A stretch of 36,211 nt of DNA from Novosphingobium sp. (GTDB lineage Bacteria > Pseudomonadota > Alphaproteobacteria > Sphingomonadales > Sphingomonadaceae): NCBI GenBank assembly GCA_029247785.1, contig JAQWKP010000215.1:1-36211 (forward strand). Direction: 5' to 3'. Position 1 is the first letter of the stretch; every line of letters starts with the position of its first letter. The translations under genes were made by a program, and so were the position numbers. The notes below the pieces were generated by a model. The model made no database searches. It worked only from the letters and a program-made list of their open reading frames with translations, and was not told where the DNA came from. Of the stretch, positions 4,500 to 24,602 are shown piece after piece.

Positions 4500-6523
4500 T
4501 GCCCAAGCTCACCGTTGATGGCGTCGAACTCGAAGTTCCTGCAGGTGCAACCGTGCTGCAGGCCTGTGAACTCGCGGGCAAGGAAGTGCCGCGTTTTTGT
4601 TACCATGAAAGATTAAGTATCGCCGGTAACTGCCGGATGTGTCTAGTCGAAGTGAAGCCGGGTCCGCCCAAGCAGCAGGCCGGTTGTGCGATGCCGGCGG
4701 GTGAGGGACAGGAAATCCGCACCGATAGCGAAATGGTCAAGACCGCGCGCGAAGGGGTGATGGAATTCCTGCTCATCAACCACCCGCTCGATTGCCCGAT
4801 CTGCGACCAGGGCGGCGAATGCGATTTGCAGGATCAGGCGATGGCTTACGGGCGCGGTGCGACGCGCTATGAGGAGAACAAGCGCGCCGTCACTGAAAAG
4901 CACATGGGTCCGCTGATCAAGACGACTATGACCCGCTGCATCCACTGCACCCGCTGCGTGCGCTTCTCCGAGGAGATCGCTGGTGTCGACGAGATCGGCG
5001 CGCTGTTTCGTGGCGAGGACATGCAAATCACGACCTATCTCGAGCAGGCCGCCAGCCACGAATTATCCGCCAATGTCATTGATTTGTGCCCGGTCGGCGC
5101 CTTGACGTCACGCCCCTATGCCTTTGAGGCGCGGCCGTGGGAGCTCAAGAAAACCCTTTCGATCGATGTTTCTGATGGGATCGGCGCAAATATCCGCCTC
5201 GATAGCCGGGGCCGCGAAGTGCTGCGCATCCTCCCGCGCATCAATGATGACGTCAATGAGGAGTGGATCTCCGACAAGGCGCGCTATCAGGTCGATGGGC
5301 TGACCAAGCGCCGTATTGACCAGCCATGGGTCCGCAAGAAGGGCAAGCCCCAGCCTGCAAGCTGGGACGAGGCCTTTGCAGCCATCGCCAAAGCCAAACC
5401 GGGTAAGAGCATTGCGGCGATTGCAGGCGGTTTGGCCGATTGTGAGACGATGTTTGCGGCCAAGCAGCTGCTGGGCGCGTTGGGCTCCGAATTGCTGGAA
5501 AGCCGCCAGACTGGTGAGAGTTTCGATGTGTCGAACCTCGCGGCGATGACCTTCAATACGACGCTCGAAGGGATCGAAAGCGCAGATGCTGTACTGATCG
5601 TCGGCAGCCACGTCCGCTGGGAAGCGGCTTTGCTCAATGTTCGACTGCGCAAGGCAGCGGCGAGGGGCGGGGCGAAAGTATTTGTGGTCGGGCCCGAATG
5701 GGAAACGACCTACCCAGCGACCTTCCTCGGTGAGGACGCATCGGTTCTGCACAATTTCCCGCAGGATGTGAGCGACACCTTCGCCAATGCCGAACGGCCC
5801 GCGATCATTCTTGGTCATGGTGGACTGGCGGCAGGCGCGCTGCACCCGGCGCTGGCGCTTGCCGAAGACTGGAAACTTGTGCGTCAGCTTGAGGATGGCA
5901 CGCCTTGGAATGGCTTCAACGTGGTGCAAATGGCCGCCAGCCAGATCGGCGCGCTGATGTTGGGCTATGCCAAGAGCGGCGGGATTGCTGACATTTCGGC
6001 TGCTTCACCCGAAGTGCTGATTTCACTGGGCGGCGACGCGATTGATTACAGCCAATTTGAAGGATCGCTAAAGGTCTATATCGGCCATCACGGTGACCGA
6101 TCGATGCAAAGCGCCGATGTCGTCCTGCCCGCAGCAGCCTATACCGAAAAGGCCGGGACCTACGTCAACACCGAAGGCCGCGTACAATTTGCGGAAAAGG
6201 GCGTGTTTGCTCCTGGTGATGCCCGTGAGGACTGGACGATCCTGCGTGCGCTGGCCGATGCGCTGGGTGCCAAGGTCGATTTCGACAGCTTCGAGGAATT
6301 GCGCGCCGCAATGGTGGCCGAAGTGCCAGCGCTGGGCGAGGAAGCGCTGGCCGATGTCGGCGCGCTTCCGAAGGCCGACAGGGGCGCGAAGGCGTCCGGC
6401 GCGATCACATATCCGATCCGTGATTTCTACCTCACCAACCCCATCGCCCGCGCCAGCGCGACGATGCAGCGCTGTTCAGCCGAACTGCTGCATGGCGATG
6501 CGATTGCGGAGGCGGCGGAATGA
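4499..6523 (+). CDS. nuoG: NADH-quinone oxidoreductase subunit G (GTG start)
   Basis: [75 protein letters not shown]. Confidence 0.98.
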
Positions 6524-7566
6524 CTGCCTACTTCCAATCGCTGGGTATGTCCCATGACTGGGCGTGGTTCGTCGCTACGGTCTGCGGGATATTGCTGATT
6601 GCAGTGCCGCTGCTGGTGGCGGTGGCCATGACGATCTATGCCGACCGCAAGATCTGGGCGGCGATGGCACTGCGGCGTGGGCCCAATGTCGTCGGCCCCT
6701 GGGGGCTGCTGCAAAGCTTTGCCGATGGTCTCAAGGTATTCCTGCAGGAAACCATCGTTCCCTCTGCTTCAAACAAGGGCCTGTTCCTGATCGCGCCAAT
6801 CGTCACCTTCACTGTGGCGCTGCTGGCCTGGGCAGTGATACCGTTCAATTCCGGCGCAGTGCTGGCGGATCTCAATGTCGGGCTGCTGTATATCCTGGCG
6901 ATCAGCTCGCTGGGAATTTACGGGGTGGTGGTGGCCGGATGGGCCTCTAACTCAAAGTACCCCTTTTTCAGTGCGATGCGCGCGGCGGCGCAGATGATCT
7001 CTTATGAAGTCTCGATCGGCTTCATCTTGATCTGCGTGGTGCTTTGGGCTGGCAGCTTCAATCTCAATGACATTATTCTCGCGCAGCGGGGCCACATATT
7101 CGGCCTGCTGAACGGGTTCGCCTTCAACCCGCTGCTATTCCCGATGTGGGTGATGTTCCTGATTTCGGCGCTGGCCGAGACCGCGCGCGCGCCATTTGAT
7201 CTGACCGAGGTCGAAAGCGAGCTCGTCGCCGGCTACCAGACCGAATATAGCTCAATGGCCTTCGCAGCCTACTGGCTGGGCGAATATGCCAATGTCCTGC
7301 TGATGTGCGCGCTCAATGCCGTGCTGTTCTTCGGCGGTTGGCTACCCCCGCTGGACTGGGCACCGCTCTACTGGATTCCTGGCTGGATCTGGCTATTCGC
7401 CAAGATCGGTTTCTTCTTCTTCGTGTTTAGCTGGGTCAAGGCGACCGTGCCGCGCTATCGCTATGACCAGCTGATGCGTCTGGGCTGGAAAGTGTTTCTG
7501 CCGGTGAGCTTGTTGTGGGTGGTGCTGGTGAGCGGATACCTGATGCTAACGAGGTATGGCGTATGA
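6520..7566 (+). CDS. nuoH: NADH-quinone oxidoreductase subunit H
   Basis: [66 protein letters not shown]. Confidence 0.98.
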
Positions 7567-8048
7567 GTGTTGCCCAACTCATCAAGAGCTTCACCCTCTG
7601 GGAATTCCTCAAGGCGCACACCTTGACGCTGAAGTATTTCTTCAAGCCCAAGGCGACGATCAACTATCCGTTCGAGAAAAACCCGCTCTCCCCGCGCTTT
7701 CGCGGCGAGCATGCGTTGCGTCGCTATCCTAATGGAGAGGAACGCTGCATTGCATGCAAGTTGTGCGAAGCGGTGTGCCCGGCGCAGGCGATCACAATTG
7801 AAGCAGAGCCGCGTGAAGACGGCAGCCGACGGACCACGCGCTACGACATCGACATGACCAAATGCATCTATTGCGGCTTCTGTCAGGAGGCTTGCCCGGT
7901 GGATGCCGTGGTTGAGGGTCCGAATTTCGAATACGCCACCGAAACGCGCGAGGAATTGCTCTACGACAAGGCGAAACTGCTGGCCAATGGTGACAAGTGG
8001 GAGCGGGCGATTGCCGCGAACCTTGAAGCCGATGCGCCGTATCGGTAG
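7563..8048 (+). CDS. nuoI: NADH-quinone oxidoreductase subunit I
   Basis: Two 4Fe-4S motifs [16 protein letters not shown] and [19 protein letters not shown] at 7563 overlapping nuoH stop. Confidence 0.97.
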
Positions 8049-8064
8049 GGGCGGCGCGGGGTTC

Positions 8065-8682
8065 ATGATTCACATACTTGCATTCTACCTGTTCGCGGTG
8101 CTGACCATCGCATCGGGCGCGATCACCATATTGGCGCGTAATCCGGTGCATTCTGTGCTGTGGCTGATCCTTGCCTTCTTCAACGCGGCGGGGCTGATGG
8201 TGCTGGTTGGCGCAGAATTCATCGCGATGCTGCTTGTGATTGTCTATGTTGGTGCGGTCGCGGTGCTGTTCCTGTTCGTGGTGATGATGCTCGACATCGA
8301 TTTCGCCGAACTGCGCGCCGGCTTCATCAAAAACTTCCCGCTCGGCATTCTTATCGCGCTGGTGTTGCTGGCCGAGATCGTGCTTGGCGTCGGTGCCTAT
8401 CAGGCTGGCGCTATGCAGCTCGGCACTCCCGATGGCAGCGCGGCAACGCCCGTAGGGGCGAGCAATATCGAAGCAATAGGCGCGCTGCTTTACGGGCGGT
8501 ACCTGTTCCTGTTCGAGGCAGCGGGCATCATCCTGCTGGTCGCGATGATCGGTGCAATTGTGCTGACTCACCGACAGCGGACGGATGTGCGCGGCCAGGA
8601 TATCAGCAAGCAGATCGCCCGGCGACCGGATGAGGCGACCGTCAATACGCAGCCCGAGATCGGCAAGGGGGTTCAGCTGTGA
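8065..8682 (+). CDS. nuoJ: NADH-quinone oxidoreductase subunit J
   Basis: MIHILAFYLFAVLTIASGAITILARNPVHSVLWLILAFFNAAGLMVLVGAEFIAMLLVIVYVGAVAVLFLFVVMMLD; start placed at 8065 inside the longer ORF. Confidence 0.95.
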   Translation: MIHILAFYLFAVLTIASGAITILARNPVHSVLWLILAFFNAAGLMVLVGAEFIAMLLVIVYVGAVAVLFLFVVMMLDIDFAELRAGFIKNFPLGILIALVLLAEIVLGVGAYQAGAMQLGTPDGSAATPVGASNIEAIGALLYGRYLFLFEAAGIILLVAMIGAIVLTHRQRTDVRGQDISKQIARRPDEATVNTQPEIGKGVQL

Positions 8683-8702
8683 CCCTTCGGCAAGCTCAGG
8701 GT
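8682..8702. repeat. Short REP-like dispersed palindrome in nuoJ-nuoK spacer (ACCCTTCGGCAAGCTCAGGGT)
   Basis: Matches the widely dispersed bacterial element type CCCTTCGRCAAGCTCAGGG (recall); inverted arms ACCCT/AGGGT. Confidence 0.6.
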
Positions 8703-8728
8703 GAGCGGAGTTATGGAGTGCTTCGCAC

Positions 8729-9034
8729 ATGATCGGCATCGAACATTACGTCGTTGTCAGTTCGATACTTTTCGTGCTGGGCGTGCTTGGCATTTTTCTG
8801 AACCGCAAGAACGTCATCGTCATTCTCATGGCGATTGAGCTGATCCTGCTGGCAGTGAATATCAATCTTGTCGCCTTCAGCGCGTTTCTTGGTGACCTTA
8901 CCGGGCAGATCTTCGCGATGTTCGTGCTGACCGTTGCAGCGGGAGAGGCGGCTATCGGGCTTGCCATTCTCGTGATCTATTTCCGAGGTCGCGGCACTAT
9001 CGCGGTCGACGATGTTAATCGGATGAAGGGGTAA
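8729..9034 (+). CDS. nuoK: NADH-quinone oxidoreductase subunit K
   Basis: [62 protein letters not shown]. Confidence 0.97.
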
Positions 9035-9038
9035 GTTC

Positions 9039-11027
9039 TTGGACGATATCCTCCTCATCGTCTTTCTGCCGCTGCTTGCCGCCATCATCGGCGGGTTGGG
9101 CAACCGTGCGCTGGGCAACTTCGTCGTCAAACTGATCACGACCGTAGCACTGTTTGCCTCTTGCGCATTGTCCTGGCCAATCTTCCTCGAGTTCGTCGCC
9201 GGAAATGGCACGACAGAGGTCGTTCCGGTGCTGAAATGGGTGGAGTCGGGCACGCTAAGCTTCGACTGGGCGCTGAGCGTCGATGCGCTGACTGCAGTGA
9301 TGCTGGTTGTCATCACTACCGTCTCGGCCTTCGTTCATCTCTATAGCTGGGGCTATATGGAAGAAGACCCGGATCAACCGCGCTTCTTCGCCTATCTCTC
9401 GCTGTTCACCTTCGCCATGCTGATGCTGGTGACCGCCGATAATCTGGTGCAGATGTTCTTTGGCTGGGAAGGGGTGGGGCTGGCTTCCTACCTGCTGATC
9501 GGCTTCTGGTTCAAGAAACCCAGCGCCAATGCTGCAGCGATCAAGGCCTTCGTCGTCAATCGGGTTGGCGATCTTGGTTTCATGCTTGGCATATTCGGAA
9601 CTTTTCTTGTGTTCGGCACGGTTTCGATACCGGAAATCCTCGCCGCTGCGCCCGCGATGGCCGGATCGACCATCGGTTTTCTCGGCTACCGCTTTGACAC
9701 GATGACAGTGCTTTGCGTGCTGCTGTTTATCGGCGCGATGGGCAAATCTGCCCAGCTTGGCCTCCACACATGGCTGCCTGACGCGATGGAAGGCCCGACC
9801 CCGGTTTCGGCGCTGATCCACGCTGCGACGATGGTGACGGCCGGCGTATTCATGGTCTGCCGACTTTCGCCCATGTTCGAAACCAGCCCGACCGCGCTTG
9901 GCTTCGTCACTTTCATCGGCGCGGCCACCTGCTTCTTTGCTGCGACTATCGGCACCTGTCAGTGGGACATCAAACGGGTCATCGCGTATTCGACCTGCTC
10001 ACAGCTGGGCTATATGTTCTTTGCCGCTGGTGTGGGTGCCTATGGTGTGGCGATGTTCCACCTGTTCACCCATGCATTCTTCAAAGCGTTGCTGTTCCTC
10101 GGTGCCGGCTCTGTGATCCATTCCATGCATCATGAGCAGGACATGCGCTATTTCGGTGGCCTCAGGAAAAAGATCCCGCTGACGTTCTGGGCGATGATGG
10201 CGGGCACGCTGGCGATCACTGGTTTGGGTATCGTCGGCGCATTTGGTTTTGCCGGCTTCTATTCGAAGGACGCGATCCTTGAAGCGGCCTTTGCCAGCGG
10301 CACCGAACTGGGCGGCTTGGCCTTCTGGGCCGGGATTACCGCCGCGCTGCTGACCAGCTTCTATTCGTGGCGGCTGATGTTCCTGACATTCTGGGGCAAG
10401 CCGCGCTGGATCGAGTCTGAGCATGTTCAGCACAGCGTTCACAAGACGCCGGAGACTGCCGAGGATTCTACCGGCGGCTATCAACCGCATGAATCGCCCT
10501 GGACGATACTGGTGCCGCTAGGTGTGCTGAGCGTTGGTGCGATCTTTGCGGGATACGTGTTTCATCACGCTTACATCGAGGACGCAGCCTTCTGGGGCAG
10601 TTCGATCGCTTACAACGAACATCTGATGCACGCGCTGCACGAGGTTCCGACCTGGGTGAAATGGGCACCCTTCGCGGTCATGATCACCGGCTTTGCGATC
10701 GCGTGGTACGGCTATATCCGCAACACCGCCTTCCCGGCGCGTGTGGTGGAGCAAATCGAGGTCGTTCACCGCTTCGTGTTCAACAAATGGTATTTCGACG
10801 AGCTTTATGACTTCCTGTTCGTTCGCCCGGCATTCTGGGTCGGCCGGCTGTTTTGGCGGGCCGGAGATATCGGAATAATCGACCGCTTCGGTCCGAACGG
10901 TGCAGCATGGGCCGTGGCGCACGGCGCGGGATATGCGCAGAAATTGCAGTACGGCTATCTCTATTCCTATGCGCTGGTGATGCTCCTTGGGCTGGTCGGC
11001 GCTGTCAGCTGGATAATCGCAGGATAG
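9039..11027 (+). CDS. nuoL: NADH-quinone oxidoreductase subunit L (TTG start)
   Basis: [59 protein letters not shown] upstream of TTG. Confidence 0.97.
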
Positions 11028-11031
11028 ATTG

Positions 11032-12591
11032 ATGGCTGACTTTCCGATCCTGTCCCTGATGCTGGCCGTGCCGCTAGTCGCGGCGCTCATCTGTCTGTTT
11101 GTCGAGGCGAAGGGCGCGCGCACGATCGCGCTTGCTGCAACGCTCGTCGATTTCGCACTCGGCGTACTGCTCTGGGCCAATTACGACATTGGCGGCGCGC
11201 AATGGCAGTTCACTGAGCGAGTCGAGCTGTTTGCTGGTTTCTCCTATGCGCTGGGCATTGATGGCATCGCGCTGATGCTGATCATGCTATCGGTATTCCT
11301 CATGCCGATCTGTATCGGCGCGAGCTGGAAATCGGTCGATAACCGCGTTGGCGAGTACATGGGTTCATTCCTGCTGATGGAAACGCTGATGATCGGCGTG
11401 TTCACTGCGCAGGACCTGTTCCTGTTCTACATCTTCTTCGAGGCCGGCCTGATCCCGATGTATCTGATCATCGGCATCTGGGGCGGGGCCGAGCGGATCT
11501 ACGCCAGCTACAAATTCTTCCTCTACACCCTGCTCGGATCGGTACTTATGCTGATCGCGATGTTGTGGATGGTCAATGAGGCCGGGACGACCACTATCCC
11601 CGTGCTGATGGCTTATGATTTCCCGCCGGGTGCACAGACTTGGCTGTGGCTGGCCTTCTTTGCCAGCTTTGCAGTCAAGATGCCGATGTGGCCGGTCCAT
11701 ACCTGGCTTCCCGACGCCCACGTGCAAGCACCGACTGCCGGCTCGATCATCCTTGCGGGCGTGCTGCTGAAGATGGGCGGTTATGGTTTCATCCGCTTCT
11801 CGCTACCGATGTTTCCGGAAGCTTCGCTTGAGTTCGCCTGGCTGATCTTCGTGCTGGCGATGGTCGCGGTGGTCTATACCAGCCTCGTGGCGTTGGTGCA
11901 GCACGACATGAAGAAGCTGATCGCCTATAGCTCGGTCGCGCATATGGGCATCGTCACCATCGGGCTGTTCGCCTTCAATGTGCAGGGGATCGAAGGCTCG
12001 ATGCTCGTGATGCTGAGCCATGGTCTGGTTTCAGGCGCGCTGTTCCTCAGCGTGGGCGTGATCTACGACCGGCTGCATACGCGCGAGATTGACCGCTACG
12101 GTGGGCTTTCGATCAACATGCCGAAATATTCGCTGTTCTTCATGCTGTTCACCATGGCCTCGGTAGGCCTTCCGGGCACCAGCGGTTTTGTTGGCGAATT
12201 CCTCAGCCTGGCGGGTATCTACCAGGTGTCAACCTGGGTCACTCTGGTGGCGGCCACGGGGATCATCCTTGGCGCGGCTTACATGCTCTATCTTTATCGC
12301 CGGGTGATTTTTGGCGAGCAGAAGAATGAGGATGCGGCCAAGATGCCGGATCTCGATCTGCGTGAGTGGCTGATGATGGGGCCAATCGCCTTGGCGGTGC
12401 TGTGGATGGGGGTTTACCCCGAAAGCTTCCTGGCACCGATGCGCGCGGATATCGCGGCACTTGATGCAAGGGTGGCGCGGGTCAAGCCGGAAGGCGATTC
12501 ACTTTTGAAACTCGCGGAACCCGCAATTGAGGGTGAGGCCACGGAATCTGACGATCACGGCGAAGAGCCAGCGCATGGGGGGGCACACTGA
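11032..12591 (+). CDS. nuoM: NADH-quinone oxidoreductase subunit M
   Basis: FFEAGLIPMYLIIGIWGG, KMPMWPVHTWLPDAHVQAPTAGSIILAGVLLKMGGYG; ATG at 11032 preferred over TTG at 11029. Confidence 0.97.
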   Translation: MADFPILSLMLAVPLVAALICLFVEAKGARTIALAATLVDFALGVLLWANYDIGGAQWQFTERVELFAGFSYALGIDGIALMLIMLSVFLMPICIGASWKSVDNRVGEYMGSFLLMETLMIGVFTAQDLFLFYIFFEAGLIPMYLIIGIWGGAERIYASYKFFLYTLLGSVLMLIAMLWMVNEAGTTTIPVLMAYDFPPGAQTWLWLAFFASFAVKMPMWPVHTWLPDAHVQAPTAGSIILAGVLLKMGGYGFIRFSLPMFPEASLEFAWLIFVLAMVAVVYTSLVALVQHDMKKLIAYSSVAHMGIVTIGLFAFNVQGIEGSMLVMLSHGLVSGALFLSVGVIYDRLHTREIDRYGGLSINMPKYSLFFMLFTMASVGLPGTSGFVGEFLSLAGIYQVSTWVTLVAATGIILGAAYMLYLYRRVIFGEQKNEDAAKMPDLDLREWLMMGPIALAVLWMGVYPESFLAPMRADIAALDARVARVKPEGDSLLKLAEPAIEGEATESDDHGEEPAHGGAH

Positions 12592-17503: not shown

Positions 17504-20500
17504 TCAGTCGCGGAGGCGTTCAATGCCCTGTGCCAGCGCGACGTAAAGCTTGCCCATATCCGACGATAGCAGTGTTACGCCCAGCGCATGACCGTCTCGC
17601 GTCGACAGCACCTGGCGCAGTATCGCCTCGAAATCGTGGACATAGCGGCTGACATGCTCGCGGAAATCCTGGTCGCGCTCGTAAACCTGCTGGATCGACT
17701 TGGCATCGCTGGAATCAATCAGGTTGACCGCACGTCTGGTAAAAATTCCCCGGTCTCCACGCAGATAGGCTGCCCATGACGTGTCCGATACTTCGGTGGA
17801 TAGCGCCTTGGCGATGTCGATTGAGTTGGAATTGAGCGTCTCGGTGATCAGCGCTACGCGGCGAGAGAAATCATTGTCGACCTGTTCTTCGGCACGCTCT
17901 CGCGCATGGGTGACCCGCTGCTCGAGATTGCCAACCAATTCGCTGACTGCTGCAAGCTGATCGCGCAGCTGGATAGTCGCTTCCCGACTCACTCCGGAGG
18001 CATGGGCGGCAGCCTGTTCCAGCTTGCCGGATGCTTCTGCGGTTGAGATGCGGATCGCTCGGTCGATCGCTTCGGCGCTTACCGCGCCAAGCCTTTCGGC
18101 CAGCGCATTTATGCTTGAGGCCCCGGTTTCATCGATTGCCGCCACCGTATCGCGGGCCGATTGCGAGAGTTTTTCGAGAGCCTGCGACAACTCGGCCTGG
18201 GCCTTGCCGGCGATCCGCTCGCTATGCTCATCCAGTTCCTCGAGTGAACGGAGGAGGGCGGCAAATGTCTCGTTCTGCTCAACACCGCGATCATTGAGCG
18301 TTTGATGCAGGGCCTCGGCCTGGGACGTCAAAGCGATCAAGGTTTCACCTGAACTCTCGATGCGATCGGCCATTGCATTGCCGGTGCCGCCTGCCTGTTC
18401 GAGCGCCTCGCCTAGATGTGCAATCCTGTTCTCGATCGTAGTGAGGCGCTCCTCGGAGAATTTCAGGGCTTCCGGCAACTCTGCGCGGCTGTTTTCGGCG
18501 CTGGCGTTGATCAACTCCAACAAACGAACGCTCGCATCGGTCAGGCTGGCAACACCCTCTTCGGCTCTTCCCAGCAATGATTGGGCGTGGAACACACCCG
18601 TTGTGATCGATTTCATTCCGTCTGAAATACTTTCTCGTGCCTCGTCGCCGCGCGAAGCAAGTTCGCCGAGGCGCTGGCCGGATGCTTCGAGTTCGGCAGT
18701 GACTTCGCCAGCGGTCTGTGAGATTTCCGCGCCTTGCTGCTGGTGCCTTGAGAGGCGGGTGCCAATTTCCGCGGCTAGGTGGGTGAGCAGCTTGCCCAGA
18801 CCGGCGACGGCCTGTTCCTCGCCTTCTGTCAATTCACTGCGCCTGCGTTCGATTTCCACGGAAATTGTCTGGCCGCGCCGGGTCGCCTCTTTATCGAGGG
18901 CTTCAAACCGCTCTGACAAATCCTTGATGAGGTTTGCGTGGCGATCCTCGAGCCTGCCCTGGTGCAGCGCAACTTGCGAAAGCATGGCGCTTGCTCTGTC
19001 CGACAGCTCGGCGTCGAGAGTTGCGCTCTTTTCCGAAAGCTCGGCCATGACCTGGACGTGGCGCGCTTGCAGAGCTTCCTGCTGCTGGTCCAGTTCCGTG
19101 CCAAGCACCTGTCCACGCCCGGCTATTTCGCGGGAAACAGCTTTGATCCGCTCGGACAGGCCGGTGATCCATTGGCTATTACTCACATCTGCGTCAATAC
19201 GAAGCTGCTCGAGTCCAGTAGAAAAGCTCTCGCTGCTTTGCACAAGTCGGGCTTCGATATTCTCCGCATCTCTCGCGAAATCTTGCAGTCTGGATTGTGC
19301 CGATGCAGCCAAATGCTCCTGTGCGTCTTGCATCGCTGAGAACACCTCGGTGTGGCCAGTTTCGAATGCGGCTAGCCCCGATTGCCATTCCTCGAGCGCC
19401 TGCTTCTCGCTTTCGAGTAGCGAGTCCGAGATCGCGGTTCCCTCGTAGCGCAATTCAGATAGCCGGGTCCTGAGCGAAGCGAGCCGCTCTTCCTCCTGTC
19501 TCTCGACTATCTCTTTCGCTTCGTCCAGCTCTTCGCCAAGCGCCTTGGCGCGACTGCGGATTGTTCCCAGCGCTTCGACCTCGCGCATCTCGAGCTGTGT
19601 ACGGAATTCGGCCCCCTCCTTGTTGAGCGCAGCAAAGTGAGTGGTGGCGACATTTGCCATCTGGTCGCAATGGCGCTGGAATTCCTCGATCGTCTCGCTG
19701 GTGTGTTTACGCAGCACGATAATTTCGCGACTGCACGCCTGACCGAACTCGTTCAAGCGGTTGAAGCCATCGATCATTTCCTCGATTTGAACTTTGGCGG
19801 TTCGTCCGGCGTTGGCGATATTGTTGGTTACGTCCTTGGCCGAGCTGGCGATCACTGGTAGTTGGCCGCGCAGCTTTTCCATGTTCTCAAGCGCGGCTTC
19901 GCTAACACTGCCGATCGCTTCAACACGTTCGCCATTGTCCTGGACAAGCTCTTGCAGCCGATCAGCATTATGGCTGAGCCGGTCGGAAGCCATGCGGCCA
20001 AGCGCTTCGAGATCGCGCGACTGGGAGGCAAGGAACTCGCGCGCAAGGCTCAATTCGCGATTGACAGTCAGCAGACGCGCTTCAAGTCGGCTTGATTCAT
20101 CTGAAAGTAGCCGAGCAGCATTTCCGAAGCGGTTTGATTCTCTACGGCTGTTTCGCATCAATAGCAGCCAACCCAAGCTTATCAGCATGATGGGAACGGA
20201 CCATTGCGTGATTAATCCCGCCCAACCGGCAGGAGTGAGCCCAAGCTGCAACTCGCTCCATCGCGCCCACCCGAAAAATCCCGTCCAGGAGATGGCAGCG
20301 ATTCCCGCGAGTGCGTGGGGGATCCAAGCGAGAAATGAATGGGAGCCACTTTCCTCTTCCAGGTCATCTGCTTCGACGGTCCAGTCTGATTCCTCGTCAA
20401 TGGTGTCGGTCAGCAGGAGTTCGCTTCCCTCCTCCATCTCGATTTGCGTACCCTCGGCAGGCGCTTTTTCGTCGCCAGAGCCGAATGCGATGATCCGATT

Positions 20501-20512
20501 TTGTCCCGTCAT
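17504..20512 (-). CDS. Large membrane-anchored coiled-coil protein (1002 aa), TipN-like architecture
   Basis: Acidic N-terminus, two hydrophobic segments (LAWIPHALAGIAAISWTGFFGWA and GLITQWSVPIMLISLGWLLLM), about 750 residues of heptad-rich helix, conserved-looking globular C-terminus (TSWAAYLRGDRGIFTRRAVNLIDSSDAKSIQQVYERDQDFREHVSRYVHDFEAILRQVL). Confidence 0.85.
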   Translation of the reverse strand: MTGQNRIIAFGSGDEKAPAEGTQIEMEEGSELLLTDTIDEESDWTVEADDLEEESGSHSFLAWIPHALAGIAAISWTGFFGWARWSELQLGLTPAGWAGLITQWSVPIMLISLGWLLLMRNSRRESNRFGNAARLLSDESSRLEARLLTVNRELSLAREFLASQSRDLEALGRMASDRLSHNADRLQELVQDNGERVEAIGSVSEAALENMEKLRGQLPVIASSAKDVTNNIANAGRTAKVQIEEMIDGFNRLNEFGQACSREIIVLRKHTSETIEEFQRHCDQMANVATTHFAALNKEGAEFRTQLEMREVEALGTIRSRAKALGEELDEAKEIVERQEEERLASLRTRLSELRYEGTAISDSLLESEKQALEEWQSGLAAFETGHTEVFSAMQDAQEHLAASAQSRLQDFARDAENIEARLVQSSESFSTGLEQLRIDADVSNSQWITGLSERIKAVSREIAGRGQVLGTELDQQQEALQARHVQVMAELSEKSATLDAELSDRASAMLSQVALHQGRLEDRHANLIKDLSERFEALDKEATRRGQTISVEIERRRSELTEGEEQAVAGLGKLLTHLAAEIGTRLSRHQQQGAEISQTAGEVTAELEASGQRLGELASRGDEARESISDGMKSITTGVFHAQSLLGRAEEGVASLTDASVRLLELINASAENSRAELPEALKFSEERLTTIENRIAHLGEALEQAGGTGNAMADRIESSGETLIALTSQAEALHQTLNDRGVEQNETFAALLRSLEELDEHSERIAGKAQAELSQALEKLSQSARDTVAAIDETGASSINALAERLGAVSAEAIDRAIRISTAEASGKLEQAAAHASGVSREATIQLRDQLAAVSELVGNLEQRVTHARERAEEQVDNDFSRRVALITETLNSNSIDIAKALSTEVSDTSWAAYLRGDRGIFTRRAVNLIDSSDAKSIQQVYERDQDFREHVSRYVHDFEAILRQVLSTRDGHALGVTLLSSDMGKLYVALAQGIERLRD
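18800..19159 (-). repeat. Three tandem degenerate 40-aa (120-bp) repeats within the coiled-coil gene
   Basis: Residues 452-491 LSERIKAVSREIAGRGQVLGTELDQQQEALQARHVQVMAE; 492-531 LSEKSATLDAELSDRASAMLSQVALHQGRLEDRHANLIKD; 532-571 LSERFEALDKEATRRGQTISVEIERRRSELTEGEEQAVAG. Confidence 0.7.
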
Positions 20513-20542
20513 TCCCCTGAAATACCAAATCTTACCAGGAGA

Positions 20543-20572
20543 TAAACCCTAGATTAACCATGAGCGGGTTAA
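20543..20572. promoter_or_regulatory. CtrA-like box (TAAA-N7-TTAAC) overlapping TTAACC-N7-GGTTAA dyad in the divergent intergenic region
   Basis: TAAACCCTAGATTAAC at 20543-20558, one mismatch to TTAA-N7-TTAAC; perfect 6-bp arms TTAACC (20554-20559)/GGTTAA (20567-20572). Confidence 0.4.
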
Positions 20573-20582
20573 GCAGCATCCC

Positions 20583-20885
20583 ATGGCATTCGAGTCAGGA
20601 ACCCTGGAAACGACCATCGCTGCTGCTGCTGGCGACGATCCGGCGCTGATTTCCGAGCTACGCGCTGCGTTTATCGAGAGTGTTGCGCGGCAGGTTGATT
20701 TGCTCTCGCGATCACGTTGCGACGGCAATTGGCATGTCGCTGCCATGCGGCTGAAAGGGCTTGCTGCAAGCTTTCATGTCGAAAAACTGATTGCCCTTTC
20801 CGAAGAGGCCTTGCAGGCTGCGCCCGGCGAGCCGGGCATTGTGCGGCATCTTCAAGCATTTGTGAAAGAATTCTCGGCAGATTGA
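20583..20885 (+). CDS. Hpt-domain-like protein lacking the phospho-acceptor His (100 aa)
   Basis: ISELRAAFIESVARQVDLLSRSRCDGNWHVAAMRLKGLAASFHVEKLIALSEEALQAA matches the Hpt helical pattern AHxLKGxAxxxG...L with Met at the His position. Confidence 0.65.
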   Translation: MAFESGTLETTIAAAAGDDPALISELRAAFIESVARQVDLLSRSRCDGNWHVAAMRLKGLAASFHVEKLIALSEEALQAAPGEPGIVRHLQAFVKEFSAD

Positions 20886-21039
20886 TTTCGATGCAGGCCA
20901 GGCAATTGCCTGTTCATGACCCAAAAAATTTGCTGTCGCGTCACTTTCTGCGGATAACCCGTTCCCACTTTTCCGCGCGATGCTATAGAACCTGAGCGCT
21001 GCTGCCTGGAGAAGCACGCTGCGGATCGCATTGCTCGCC

Positions 21040-22215
21040 ATGATGGACGACGGATCGTCGGGACAGGCCGTCCCGCGCGCGTTTCTGCGCATTGGTGGAG
21101 CTACCCTGGCCCAACACCAGCTGGGTGTGGCTCGGGCGCTCGGTTGCCAACATCTTGTTTGCCTTGCAGCCGGCATGGTCCCGGAATTGATTGCGCTCCA
21201 ACACGAGGTCGAAGCGTCGGGAATGAAGTTTCATATCCTCGCCGATGCCAGGGGTTTATCGGCCATTGTTGCAGCAGGTGATGAACTATTGGTGCTGAGC
21301 GCAGGCCTGTTGGCTGATCCCGAGACAGTTGCCAGCCTGATCGAAAGGCCGGTTGTGCTTGTGCAACCCGCCGAAGCGGCAGCCGAAGCAGGATTTGAGC
21401 GCATTGATCTCAACTACGCTTGTGCCGGGGCAATTCTCATTGCCGGCAATCTCGTCGAAGGTCTTCACGACATTCCATCCGATTGTGACGTTGCCTCGGC
21501 ACTGACCCGGCTAGCGCTTCAACAGGGCGTCCTGCGCCTCGAGGTGCCTGCCGGAAAGCGCGCGGGCACACGCTGGAGGATGGTGGAGAATGAATCCCAG
21601 GCACATGCGATCGAGAATGAATGGCTCAACCACGCGCTCGGCCCCAGACAAAGCAAGTCCCCGGGATTCTTTCTTGCCCGTACAGCCGCACTAACATTGG
21701 GTCCGTCGCTTCTTCACTCGGGCAATGGGGGAAGTGTCGCAGCCTTGTCGGTTCTTGCAGGATTGGCAATCGCTCTGGGAGCGGGATGGATCGGAATGGG
21801 TGCACTGGCATTCCTGGCTTGCGCAATTGCCTGGGTGCTGTTCGAACTCCACCGCTTGCTCGGCAAGGTGGAGCAGCAATTCTCAGGCTCTCCGGTTTCC
21901 GCACTTGTCCGGCTTGATGCGCTGGGTTGGTTATATGATTGCGCAGTCGTACTGCTGTTGACTTGGCTATCATCTCGCGGAGCAGGCACTCCTCTTGCAG
22001 AGCATGTCTTTGCCCCGATCATGCTGATTTTGATGCTGCGGATTGCGCCCCATAATCCGCGAGCCAGTCAGACGAATTGGATCAAGGATCGCGCGATTCT
22101 GGCAACGGCCCTTGCCGTGGCGGCCATTCTGGGGACAATTCCCTTAGTAGTCCAGATACTTGCAGTTGGTCTGGCCGTTGCAGCGATTGCCCTTCGGACT
22201 GGCCCGACAAAGTAG
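21040..22215 (+). CDS. Bipartite protein: N-terminal nucleotidyltransferase-like domain + C-terminal multi-TM domain
   Basis: PRAFLRIGGATLAQHQLGVARALGCQHLVCLAAG resembles sugar-NTP transferase strand-helix start; C-terminal about 180 aa has several TM segments; longer TTG start at 21031 possible. Confidence 0.6.
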   Translation: MMDDGSSGQAVPRAFLRIGGATLAQHQLGVARALGCQHLVCLAAGMVPELIALQHEVEASGMKFHILADARGLSAIVAAGDELLVLSAGLLADPETVASLIERPVVLVQPAEAAAEAGFERIDLNYACAGAILIAGNLVEGLHDIPSDCDVASALTRLALQQGVLRLEVPAGKRAGTRWRMVENESQAHAIENEWLNHALGPRQSKSPGFFLARTAALTLGPSLLHSGNGGSVAALSVLAGLAIALGAGWIGMGALAFLACAIAWVLFELHRLLGKVEQQFSGSPVSALVRLDALGWLYDCAVVLLLTWLSSRGAGTPLAEHVFAPIMLILMLRIAPHNPRASQTNWIKDRAILATALAVAAILGTIPLVVQILAVGLAVAAIALRTGPTK

Positions 22216-22219
22216 ACGG

Positions 22220-22235
22220 CTAACAAGTATTTAAC
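22220..22235 (+). promoter_or_regulatory. CtrA-like box CTAA-N7-TTAAC
   Basis: CTAACAAGTATTTAAC, one mismatch to TTAA-N7-TTAAC, immediately upstream of the 22258 ORF. Confidence 0.4.
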
Positions 22236-22257
22236 CATCAAGTTCTATGGCATTAGC

Positions 22258-23211
22258 ATGATCGACGCAGCTGTGAATTCCGTGAGCCTGGAATCTGTCG
22301 AGGCGGTCCTGCGCGAGGAATTGGCGCGGGGTGACGCCATGACCGATACCGTCGTGCCGATTTTGCGGCATTTGCTCGGCAATGACGGAAATTCCATCTT
22401 TAGCGATGAAGTGGTCGCCAGCGTGCGTGGCATGATGACCGATATTGCCTGCCAATTGCTCGATAAGTTGAACGAAGTGTCCGGAGACCAGCCTGACCCT
22501 GACGACATCAGTGCCCTGACTGACGCATTTATTACGAATGCGGCGCTTGTCGGTCATGTGCATGCACTCGCGCTGGAAACCCAATTTACCAACAGATTGC
22601 ATGCAAAGCTGGCGTTGGATCCGGTGCTTTCTCCCTTGCTCCAGGCGCTGATAGCGTCGCAGGACGAAGCGACGGCGAGCCTTGCCATGAAATTGCTCGC
22701 AGCGCAGGCGCGATTCTGCCAGTCACAGCGGCGTATGCAACTGCCTCTGAATGAGCTGCCAGGCGATTTGCTGCACAGTGCATTGCTCAGCATGCGGACA
22801 TTGGCGGGAACCGAACCCGAAGTTGATGAGCGGGCCGCAGCGGCAGAAGCACAGATCAGATTGGGCTATGATGAGGCCGCGACCCGGCTTGGACTGATTT
22901 CGCGTCTTGTCGAAGGGATGGCCAGCGGTGCGATTGCGGCGCTGGCGGTCCGCCATGCTGGCGCCTCGATATTCCTTTCCGCAGTGGCAATCGGATCGGG
23001 ACAGGATCGCGATACGGCAGTGTTTTCTACCGACGAAGCACAGGCCGCGCGCCTAGCCCTGGGGCTACGTGCCGCCGGGCTCAAGCAACAGGCGATCGAG
23101 GAGCAGTTCCTTGCGCTCCACCCCGAGGTCTGCCTTCCCGAGGGATTTGATCGGCTGACTTCTGACCGGTCTGCAGCAATCCTCTCCGTTGCCAGCTACC
23201 GCGGAGGATGA
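22258..23211 (+). CDS. Helical protein of unknown family (317 aa), co-transcribed with the kinase-like gene
   Basis: Long codon-consistent ORF; predicted all-helical; possibly DUF2336-like (low certainty); 4-bp overlap with next gene. Confidence 0.75.
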   Translation: MIDAAVNSVSLESVEAVLREELARGDAMTDTVVPILRHLLGNDGNSIFSDEVVASVRGMMTDIACQLLDKLNEVSGDQPDPDDISALTDAFITNAALVGHVHALALETQFTNRLHAKLALDPVLSPLLQALIASQDEATASLAMKLLAAQARFCQSQRRMQLPLNELPGDLLHSALLSMRTLAGTEPEVDERAAAAEAQIRLGYDEAATRLGLISRLVEGMASGAIAALAVRHAGASIFLSAVAIGSGQDRDTAVFSTDEAQAARLALGLRAAGLKQQAIEEQFLALHPEVCLPEGFDRLTSDRSAAILSVASYRGG

Positions 23212-24602
23212 GCATGGTGGCCGATGGGGCCATACTCTCCCGTGCCGTCAGCGACGCCGATGACAGGCTGGTCCTCGCCGATGAGCTGTTGGCGAGCTTG
23301 CAATTGCGCTGCGGTGGCGAGCTTCCCGGCACAATTGCCATTCCCTCGCTGCTTGAGGTTGTCCGCAAGGTTCGGCGCTATCAGCTGAAATTGGCGCGAC
23401 AGGTATCGGGCCAAGATCATGAGGAAGCCTTTGGGGCCTGGGTCGAAGTGGAACCGCGCAGCGATGGCGAAATCGGGTGCGAAATCTTTCTGCGCAGTAT
23501 CCGCAGATCCGCTCTTCCCGAAGAGGCTTCGGACAGGGCCGAGGAGCGGCGCATTGCGATAGATCGCCATCTCGCCGAATTGACGGCAAGGCTCGATGGC
23601 AGGCAACGCTTGCTCGCGGTCGAAAGCGATGCGGCTGATCTGGCTGAATTGCGCGAAACCATGCTCGACGGAATTGGCGAGCTGTGGACGAACTTTGTCA
23701 CATTCAACGCGAACAGCCACCATCAGCCGCTGCATTGGCGGTTGCTGGATGGCGCGCAGGTTACGGTGGCCGGCTCAGCGCGCAGCTGGCGGGCGACCCT
23801 TATTCCCACGCCGGCTCCGGGATCAGAGCCGTCGGGCTTTGAACTGTTGCTGGTTTCGGATGAACCACTGCAAAGTGGGCCCGTGCAATTGGTTCATGAT
23901 CTCGCTCCAGTGCCTCCGGCCTTGATCGGCGAGGATATCGCTCCAGTGCTGCGTCAACCGATTGAGCGCATCAAAGCGAATGCCGAGACGATTCGGACGC
24001 GACTGGCCGGTCCATTGTCGCAGGACTATGCAAATTATGCCTCGGAAATATCGGCAGCTGCAGAGCACCTGCTCGGGCTGCTTGACGACCTTTCGGACCT
24101 GGAAGTCGTCGAAGCCCAAGGGTTTCTGACAGCATCGGACCATATCGATCTCGCTGACGTGGCGCGGCAGGCAGCAGGGATCCAATCTGTGCGAGCACAG
24201 GAGAAACAGATCAGCATCGATGTGCCAAAACCAGGAGACAGCCTTCCAGCAATCGCCGAATTTCGCCGGGTCCTCCAGATCCTTTTGAATCTACTAGGAA
24301 ATGCAATCAATTATTCGCCCGAAGGTTCGTCCATCTGGATCCGGATCGAAGAAGTCGAGGATCGCTCGAGAATAATCGTCGCCGACCAAGGGCCGGGACT
24401 CTCACCAGAGGCCACTAGGGTAATTTTCGAAAAGTTTGAACGGCTCGGACGAAGCGGTGACGGTGGTTCTGGATTGGGACTCTATATATCACGCAAACTC
24501 GCCCGAGCGATGGGCGGCGAGCTCAGCGTTGATAGCGCGCCGGGACAGGGTGCCCGGTTCTTGCTTGAGCTACCGGGCGATGGCGACAAGAGCGCACTGT
24601 AG
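23208..24602 (+). CDS. Histidine-kinase-like protein with intact HATPase but degenerate DHp (His replaced by Pro)
   Basis: HATPase N/G1/G2 boxes: NLLGNAINYSPEGS, VADQGPGL, GSGLGLYISRKLARAMGGELSVDSAPGQGARF; DHp region APVLRQPIERIKANAETIRTRLAGPLSQDYANYASEISAAAEHLLGLLDDLSDLEVVEAQ. Confidence 0.88.
   Translation: MSMVADGAILSRAVSDADDRLVLADELLASLQLRCGGELPGTIAIPSLLEVVRKVRRYQLKLARQVSGQDHEEAFGAWVEVEPRSDGEIGCEIFLRSIRRSALPEEASDRAEERRIAIDRHLAELTARLDGRQRLLAVESDAADLAELRETMLDGIGELWTNFVTFNANSHHQPLHWRLLDGAQVTVAGSARSWRATLIPTPAPGSEPSGFELLLVSDEPLQSGPVQLVHDLAPVPPALIGEDIAPVLRQPIERIKANAETIRTRLAGPLSQDYANYASEISAAAEHLLGLLDDLSDLEVVEAQGFLTASDHIDLADVARQAAGIQSVRAQEKQISIDVPKPGDSLPAIAEFRRVLQILLNLLGNAINYSPEGSSIWIRIEEVEDRSRIIVADQGPGLSPEATRVIFEKFERLGRSGDGGSGLGLYISRKLARAMGGELSVDSAPGQGARFLLELPGDGDKSAL

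Follow-up and report, generated by a model that had tools for sequence, protein, structure and literature searches.

In alphaproteobacteria, DivL-type kinases and TipN-type coiled-coil landmarks tie the CtrA phosphorelay to cell polarity. Such pseudo-kinases, DivL of Caulobacter and RetS of Pseudomonas among them, are known singly. RgsE, the Sinorhizobium polar growth ring protein, has two N-terminal membrane segments. It is a 2,089-aa protein with apolipoprotein domains and a homologue of GPR (PMC7327166), whose C terminus is required for function (PMC8262873), and TipN has been described as analogous to GPR (PMC13170164). Promoters activated by CtrA usually have one site, located at -35 (PMC11264516), and a ctrA deletion in S. 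melonis is reported to cause no growth defect (PMC8116508). Sphingomonadales have kept CckA-ChpT-CtrA while DivJ-PleC-DivK has degenerated or been lost (PMC2877005), which leaves room for another input.

The window analyzed here, i.e., the whole 36,211-nt stretch of a Novosphingobium sp. contig, carries five neighboring genes between DUF1467 and gltA, and all five open reading frames of the original prediction are present. The order rnj-DUF1467-CC(-)-Hpt-NTM-DUF2336-kinase-gltA(-)-gltX(-), in which CC denotes a coiled-coil protein and NTM a nucleotidyltransferase-type membrane protein, recurs over dozens of genera of Sphingomonadaceae (60 loci, picked as kinase carriers and available as partial slices, so that gene-absence counts among them are not frequencies). 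The block is thus syntenic and lineage specific, as had been proposed. An orthologue of the kinase occurs in 125 of 151 genomes of the family, one apiece. Sphingomonas parapaucimobilis YK209 is a named example; its genes are annotated as "Hpt domain-containing protein" and "HAMP domain-containing sensor histidine kinase," and both products lack the His.

The CC gene (17504..20512, minus strand) specifies a 1002-aa coiled-coil protein with a predicted membrane anchor. Its helical character agrees with the original prediction of a two-TM coiled coil; one clear hydrophobic segment (100-119) is preceded by a weaker one, making two membrane passes plausible. Against PF01442, the family of apolipoprotein-like helical repeats, CC scored 21.8 bits (E 1.7e-4), far below the cut-off of 90. 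Its most conserved part is a C-terminal domain of about 120 aa (17507..17902, minus strand) with 29 invariant columns in 21 sequences. This domain is found once, rarely twice, per genome in 123 of the 337 genomes of the class, the frames that contain it ranging from about 460 to 2750 aa, and a fold search with its helical model returned no PDB match. By BLASTP, CC aligned with a 2,089-aa S. meliloti protein at E 3e-20 (38% identity over 118 aa, both C termini); the same protein appeared at E 4e-16 in the collection-wide search, with the profile match at 1971-2087. It contains 12 PF01442 stretches (257.8 bits), and its gene has cytochrome bc1 genes as neighbors, along with a divergently oriented Hpt gene. 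On its length, apolipoprotein domains and C-terminal homology, we identify it as the putative RgsE. The shared C-terminal domain shows CC to be a predicted protein of the RgsE/GPR kind. The proposed link to a polar factor therefore holds through this domain, with the factor being RgsE/GPR-like by sequence.

The Hpt neighbor of CC has counterparts well beyond Sphingomonadaceae. Of 104 loci tested, 64 have a divergent Hpt gene no more than 2.5 kb from CC; among them are S. meliloti, Shinella and nearly every named locus of the Parvibaculum/Rhodobiaceae type. In S. meliloti Ak57 (L253), an Hpt with intact His (5105-5473) is divergent to the RgsE-type gene (6091-12360). Since the RgsE gene also has a divergent Hpt neighbor with His, the pair appears to be ancient, as far as these genomic neighborhoods tell. 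In many other families of the class (L130-L138, L169-L172 and others), no divergent Hpt was found near CC; the pairing, though widespread, is therefore not universal. Among named contigs, the scan recovered genomes of Parvibaculum and of the Rhodobiaceae type but no Caulobacter locus, and the literature searched contained no report of an RgsE/GPR-Hpt pairing. A different family has a gene for a kinase that weakly matches Hpt immediately upstream of, and co-oriented with, the gene for a 1,635-aa CC homologue (L167:11958-14591, L168:3-1844). Two records labeled as plasmids, CP090106.1 (pSymB, 3.7 Mb) and NZ_CP155749.1 (880 kb), bear chromosomal housekeeping genes and may be mislabeled or secondary chromosomes.

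In the window, the gene divergent to CC encodes a 100-aa protein (20583..20885, plus strand). A Pfam search with this protein alone gave no match, nor did its own genome contain any match to PF01627 (Hpt). Among its orthologues, 22 of 38 match Pfam Hpt (best 1e-8), and the AlphaFold model (pLDDT 90) retrieved Hpt domains as all of its top 15 PDB matches, with weak E-values of about 0.35-1 and probabilities of 0.87-0.99. The structure prediction called for at the outset thus supports a four-helix Hpt fold. The essential His is lost, HxLKG having become MRLKG with Met55 in its place (codon 20745-20747). In core Sphingomonadaceae, His is absent from this position in 40 of 40 loci, which carry Met, Trp, Leu, Gln, Ala, Glu or Phe. 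Outside the core, every one of the 63 Hpts tested next to CC keeps it. So do two basal Sphingomonadaceae (G082, G145); G016 and several intermediate genomes lack the Hpt gene entirely.

The 464-aa kinase (23208..24602, plus strand) is soluble and shows an unambiguous ATPase domain (HATPase_c, 3e-27), whereas its HisKA match reaches 24.0 bits, below the Pfam cut-off of 26.9. Its H-box reads DIAPVLRQP, with Pro246 (codon 23943-23945) where the phosphoacceptor His belongs, in line with the proposed change from HELRTP to PVLRQP. The His is missing in 57 of 65 kinase loci, Pro being the commonest substitute; six basal loci preserve the canonical HELRTP, and two others on a long branch (L082 and L083, from G106 and G021) have a His at the aligned column within a noncanonical DHSFKPP box. 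By contrast with this variable position, the ATP-binding residues N365, D393, G395, G420, G422 and G424 are invariant in 59 of 59 core kinases, leaving the N, G1 and G2 boxes intact. Mean column identity in this set is 0.67 for the catalytic domain, 0.63 for DHp and 0.41 for the N-terminal part. In a FastTree phylogeny computed with the H-box masked beforehand, His-bearing kinases are basal (G038/G050/G054, G082/G145 and G011), and the loss of His maps to the branch leading to G016 plus the core. Judged from sequence, the window kinase descends from a local kinase that had the His and was paired with DUF2336.

Relatives outside the core give a picture of the former arrangement. In other families of Sphingomonadales, the order is CC, Hpt with His, and a receiver protein, with a DUF2336 gene close by. 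The receiver-domain gene is absent from 40 of the 47 genomes searched, all 40 being Sphingomonadaceae, and is retained in G050, G054, G038 and four outgroups. At L141, L144, L145, L151-L156, L160 and L163, a receiver with a conserved FGPDRRR tail adjoins CC or Hpt. What we take, by comparison with CheY, to be the phosphoacceptor Asp of this receiver is already Asn in most loci of other families (SNWDMSP), Asp being kept in L141 and L152 (SDWEMSP). The original prediction had counted relatives with His at both positions against itself; these are seen in basal genera only, and His is absent in all close relatives. His at both positions thus represents the ancestral state, which does not speak against a lineage-specific loss. 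From their proximity, we infer that kinase and Hpt worked as one relay before the His residues disappeared.

The two remaining proteins are more divergent. NTM (394 aa; 21031..22215, plus strand) is a degenerate NTP-transferase/CDP-alcohol phosphotransferase membrane protein. Nine of 34 orthologues match the MobA-like NTP_transf_3 family and 2 of 34 match CDP-OH_P_transf. The DxxDGxxAR motif is absent from the window protein and the core orthologues checked, and present in L086, L090, L161 and the outgroups. The suggested origin as a nucleotidyltransferase/membrane fusion therefore stands, while the catalytic motifs are gone in the window protein. In L086 (4981-10717) and L090 (1854-7135), genes resembling inositol-phosphate synthase and nucleotidyltransferases lie between NTM and DUF2336, and L086 has a CDP-alcohol-transferase gene likewise inside the island. 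These inositol-type genes in basal lineages suggest that NTM originated in inositol-lipid synthesis. The fourth gene (22258..23211, plus strand), previously described just as coding for a helical protein, can now be assigned through its orthologues to a probable, divergent DUF2336 protein of 317 aa. The window protein itself has no PF10098 match; 16 of 34 orthologues match DUF2336 (PF10098; best 4e-66), and a basal syntenic orthologue scores 178.6 bits. DUF2336 genes lie near CC in other families too, and literature searches for DUF2336 and SMc00191 yielded no papers.

Both promoter regions of the island contain CtrA-like boxes, whose earlier recognition we confirm as a sequence footprint with conserved position across loci. 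One, TAAACCC-TAGA-TTAAC, lies between CC and the pseudo-Hpt gene (20543..20558, plus strand), and the other, CTAACAAGTATTTAAC, upstream of the DUF2336 gene (22220..22235, plus strand). The window holds just two exact copies of TTAACCAT (20554 and 22231), one inside each of these promoters. An exact TTAA-N7-TTAA has no match in the window, so the box carries one changed base in a half-site. In 26 of 39 loci, the pattern [TG]AAAC-N6-TTAA precedes the Hpt start by 40-45 bases, compared with 16 of 19,500 random 80-mers (0.08%) that contain it. A related box precedes DUF2336 at 17 of the 53 loci (0.4% of random 180-mers have one) and is missing upstream of NTM (0/55) and of the kinase (0/58). The loci are related and their counts hence nonindependent, with widely diverged flanking sequence. 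In 15 outgroup or basal loci tested, the box upstream of Hpt was not found, save for a lone TTAACCAT in L173. These footprints suggest that CtrA may act on the module.

Taken together, the data make it probable that a polar-scaffold phosphorelay was turned stepwise into a phosphate-free, presumably CtrA-expressed module, kept for binding and allostery. The evolutionary part of this reading is well supported; the mechanism is one that we infer. A divergent Hpt gene goes along with the CC gene from Sinorhizobium via Parvibaculum-type bacteria to Sphingomonadales. Toward core Sphingomonadaceae, the receiver gene, the His residues of Hpt and kinase, and the CDP-alcohol-transferase motif were lost, and CtrA-type boxes appear at both promoters. 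In the proposed mechanism, predivisional cells would express the module under CtrA. Its pseudo-kinase would bind ATP and dimerize via its intact DHp helices, and would act as a conformational switch gated by a nucleotide or ligand. Together with the DUF2336 protein, and with the pseudo-Hpt as adaptor, it would govern how the CC scaffold at the growing pole assembles or which clients it takes, and it may do so by docking on kinases of the CckA type or on receivers that would pass it no phosphate. The phosphotransfer-independent polarity module originally envisaged is upheld in its lineage, synteny, His losses, Hpt fold, polar-factor link and boxes, and altered in the DivL and TipN parallels. 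The fullest version of this scenario can be advanced more tentatively, at somewhat short of even chances: a complete relay of kinase, Hpt and receiver that was coupled to a scaffold for polar growth would have become a phosphate-free complex whose ATP and docking surfaces are under selection and whose expression was handed to CtrA, against a class-wide RgsE/GPR-Hpt background.

Alternatively, the kinase might be a DivL-type regulator that docks on CckA and tunes CtrA, its CC neighborhood being secondary. A pseudo-kinase with an intact ATP domain, CtrA-type boxes at the promoters and the retention of CckA-ChpT-CtrA in Sphingomonadales (PMC2877005) would all fit. However, the solved DivL structure 4q20 ranks far under canonical kinases in a sequence search (1.7e-13 versus 2.9e-25), the protein is soluble with a degenerate PAS and has Pro instead of Tyr, and it originates in the local DUF2336-paired kinase with His. 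We regard this alternative as unlikely. Orthology to DivL as such is ruled out by solubility, by Pro in place of Tyr and by the local His-containing ancestor.

Slightly less credible still is that the genes are relics of a relay that lost its output, drifting toward loss, with the missing His a mark of decay. Among the kinase-selected loci, several core genera have lost the Hpt gene outright. In one genus (g19; L157 and L158), a natural deletion has removed Hpt, NTM, DUF2336 and kinase alike, and CC is retained directly beside gltA; the parts are thus dispensable there. NTM and DUF2336 are also poorly conserved, with median identities to the window (29 loci) of 29.8% and 32.4%, compared with 37.6% for CC, 44.7% for the kinase, 53.3% for DUF1467 and 57.6% for Hpt. 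Nonetheless, open frames are retained throughout the family, the promoters are conserved, the ATP-site residues are invariant, and the pseudo-Hpt has the highest median among the island proteins and exceeds even the neighbor DUF1467. Given the invariant ATP-binding residues and the best-conserved pseudo-Hpt, the island proteins look like predicted repurposed components and not decaying genes.

That the module still moves phosphate by another residue or by partners encoded elsewhere is very improbable. In its favor, the catalytic domain is complete, and at least 93% of core kinases share His287, which lies in the second DHp helix. Against it, the equivalent position is also His in the His-containing basal kinases (AGRHLL in L090), the lost kinase position varies among Pro, Arg, Ala, Lys, Glu, Gly and others without a phosphorylatable consensus, and the Hpt position holds Met, Trp or one of the other substitutes given above. 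We therefore rejected phosphotransfer via His287, which occurs in relatives with a normal H-box His and is thus no replacement phosphoacceptor.

If the repurposed-relay reading is true, the island is a natural experiment on what a phosphorelay is capable of without phosphate. A neighboring kinase and Hpt have lost their phosphate residues in one lineage, both remain constrained, and His-containing relatives exist. It would also tie Hpt signaling to polar-growth proteins of the RgsE/GPR type in Rhizobiales, where the neighboring Hpt retains His, within a class-wide pairing that had previously gone unremarked.

Compared with known systems, CC resembles Caulobacter TipN in size and layout. With GPR of Agrobacterium and RgsE, it has in common the C-terminal domain, the divergent Hpt neighbor and a long helical architecture, for which a membrane anchor and apolipoprotein-like repeats are predicted in CC; it differs in being half as long, in its subthreshold PF01442 score and in an Hpt devoid of His. 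The pseudo-Hpt model has the same fold as the Hpt phosphotransfer protein ShpA of Caulobacter (2ooc; TM 0.64), but none of the 40 core loci offers a phosphorylatable His. Like DivL and RetS, the island kinase represents a kinase fold with an intact ATP domain used without normal His phosphorylation. Unlike them, it has Pro rather than Tyr, is soluble, is partnered by a pseudo-Hpt and a DUF2336 protein, and has a separate origin.
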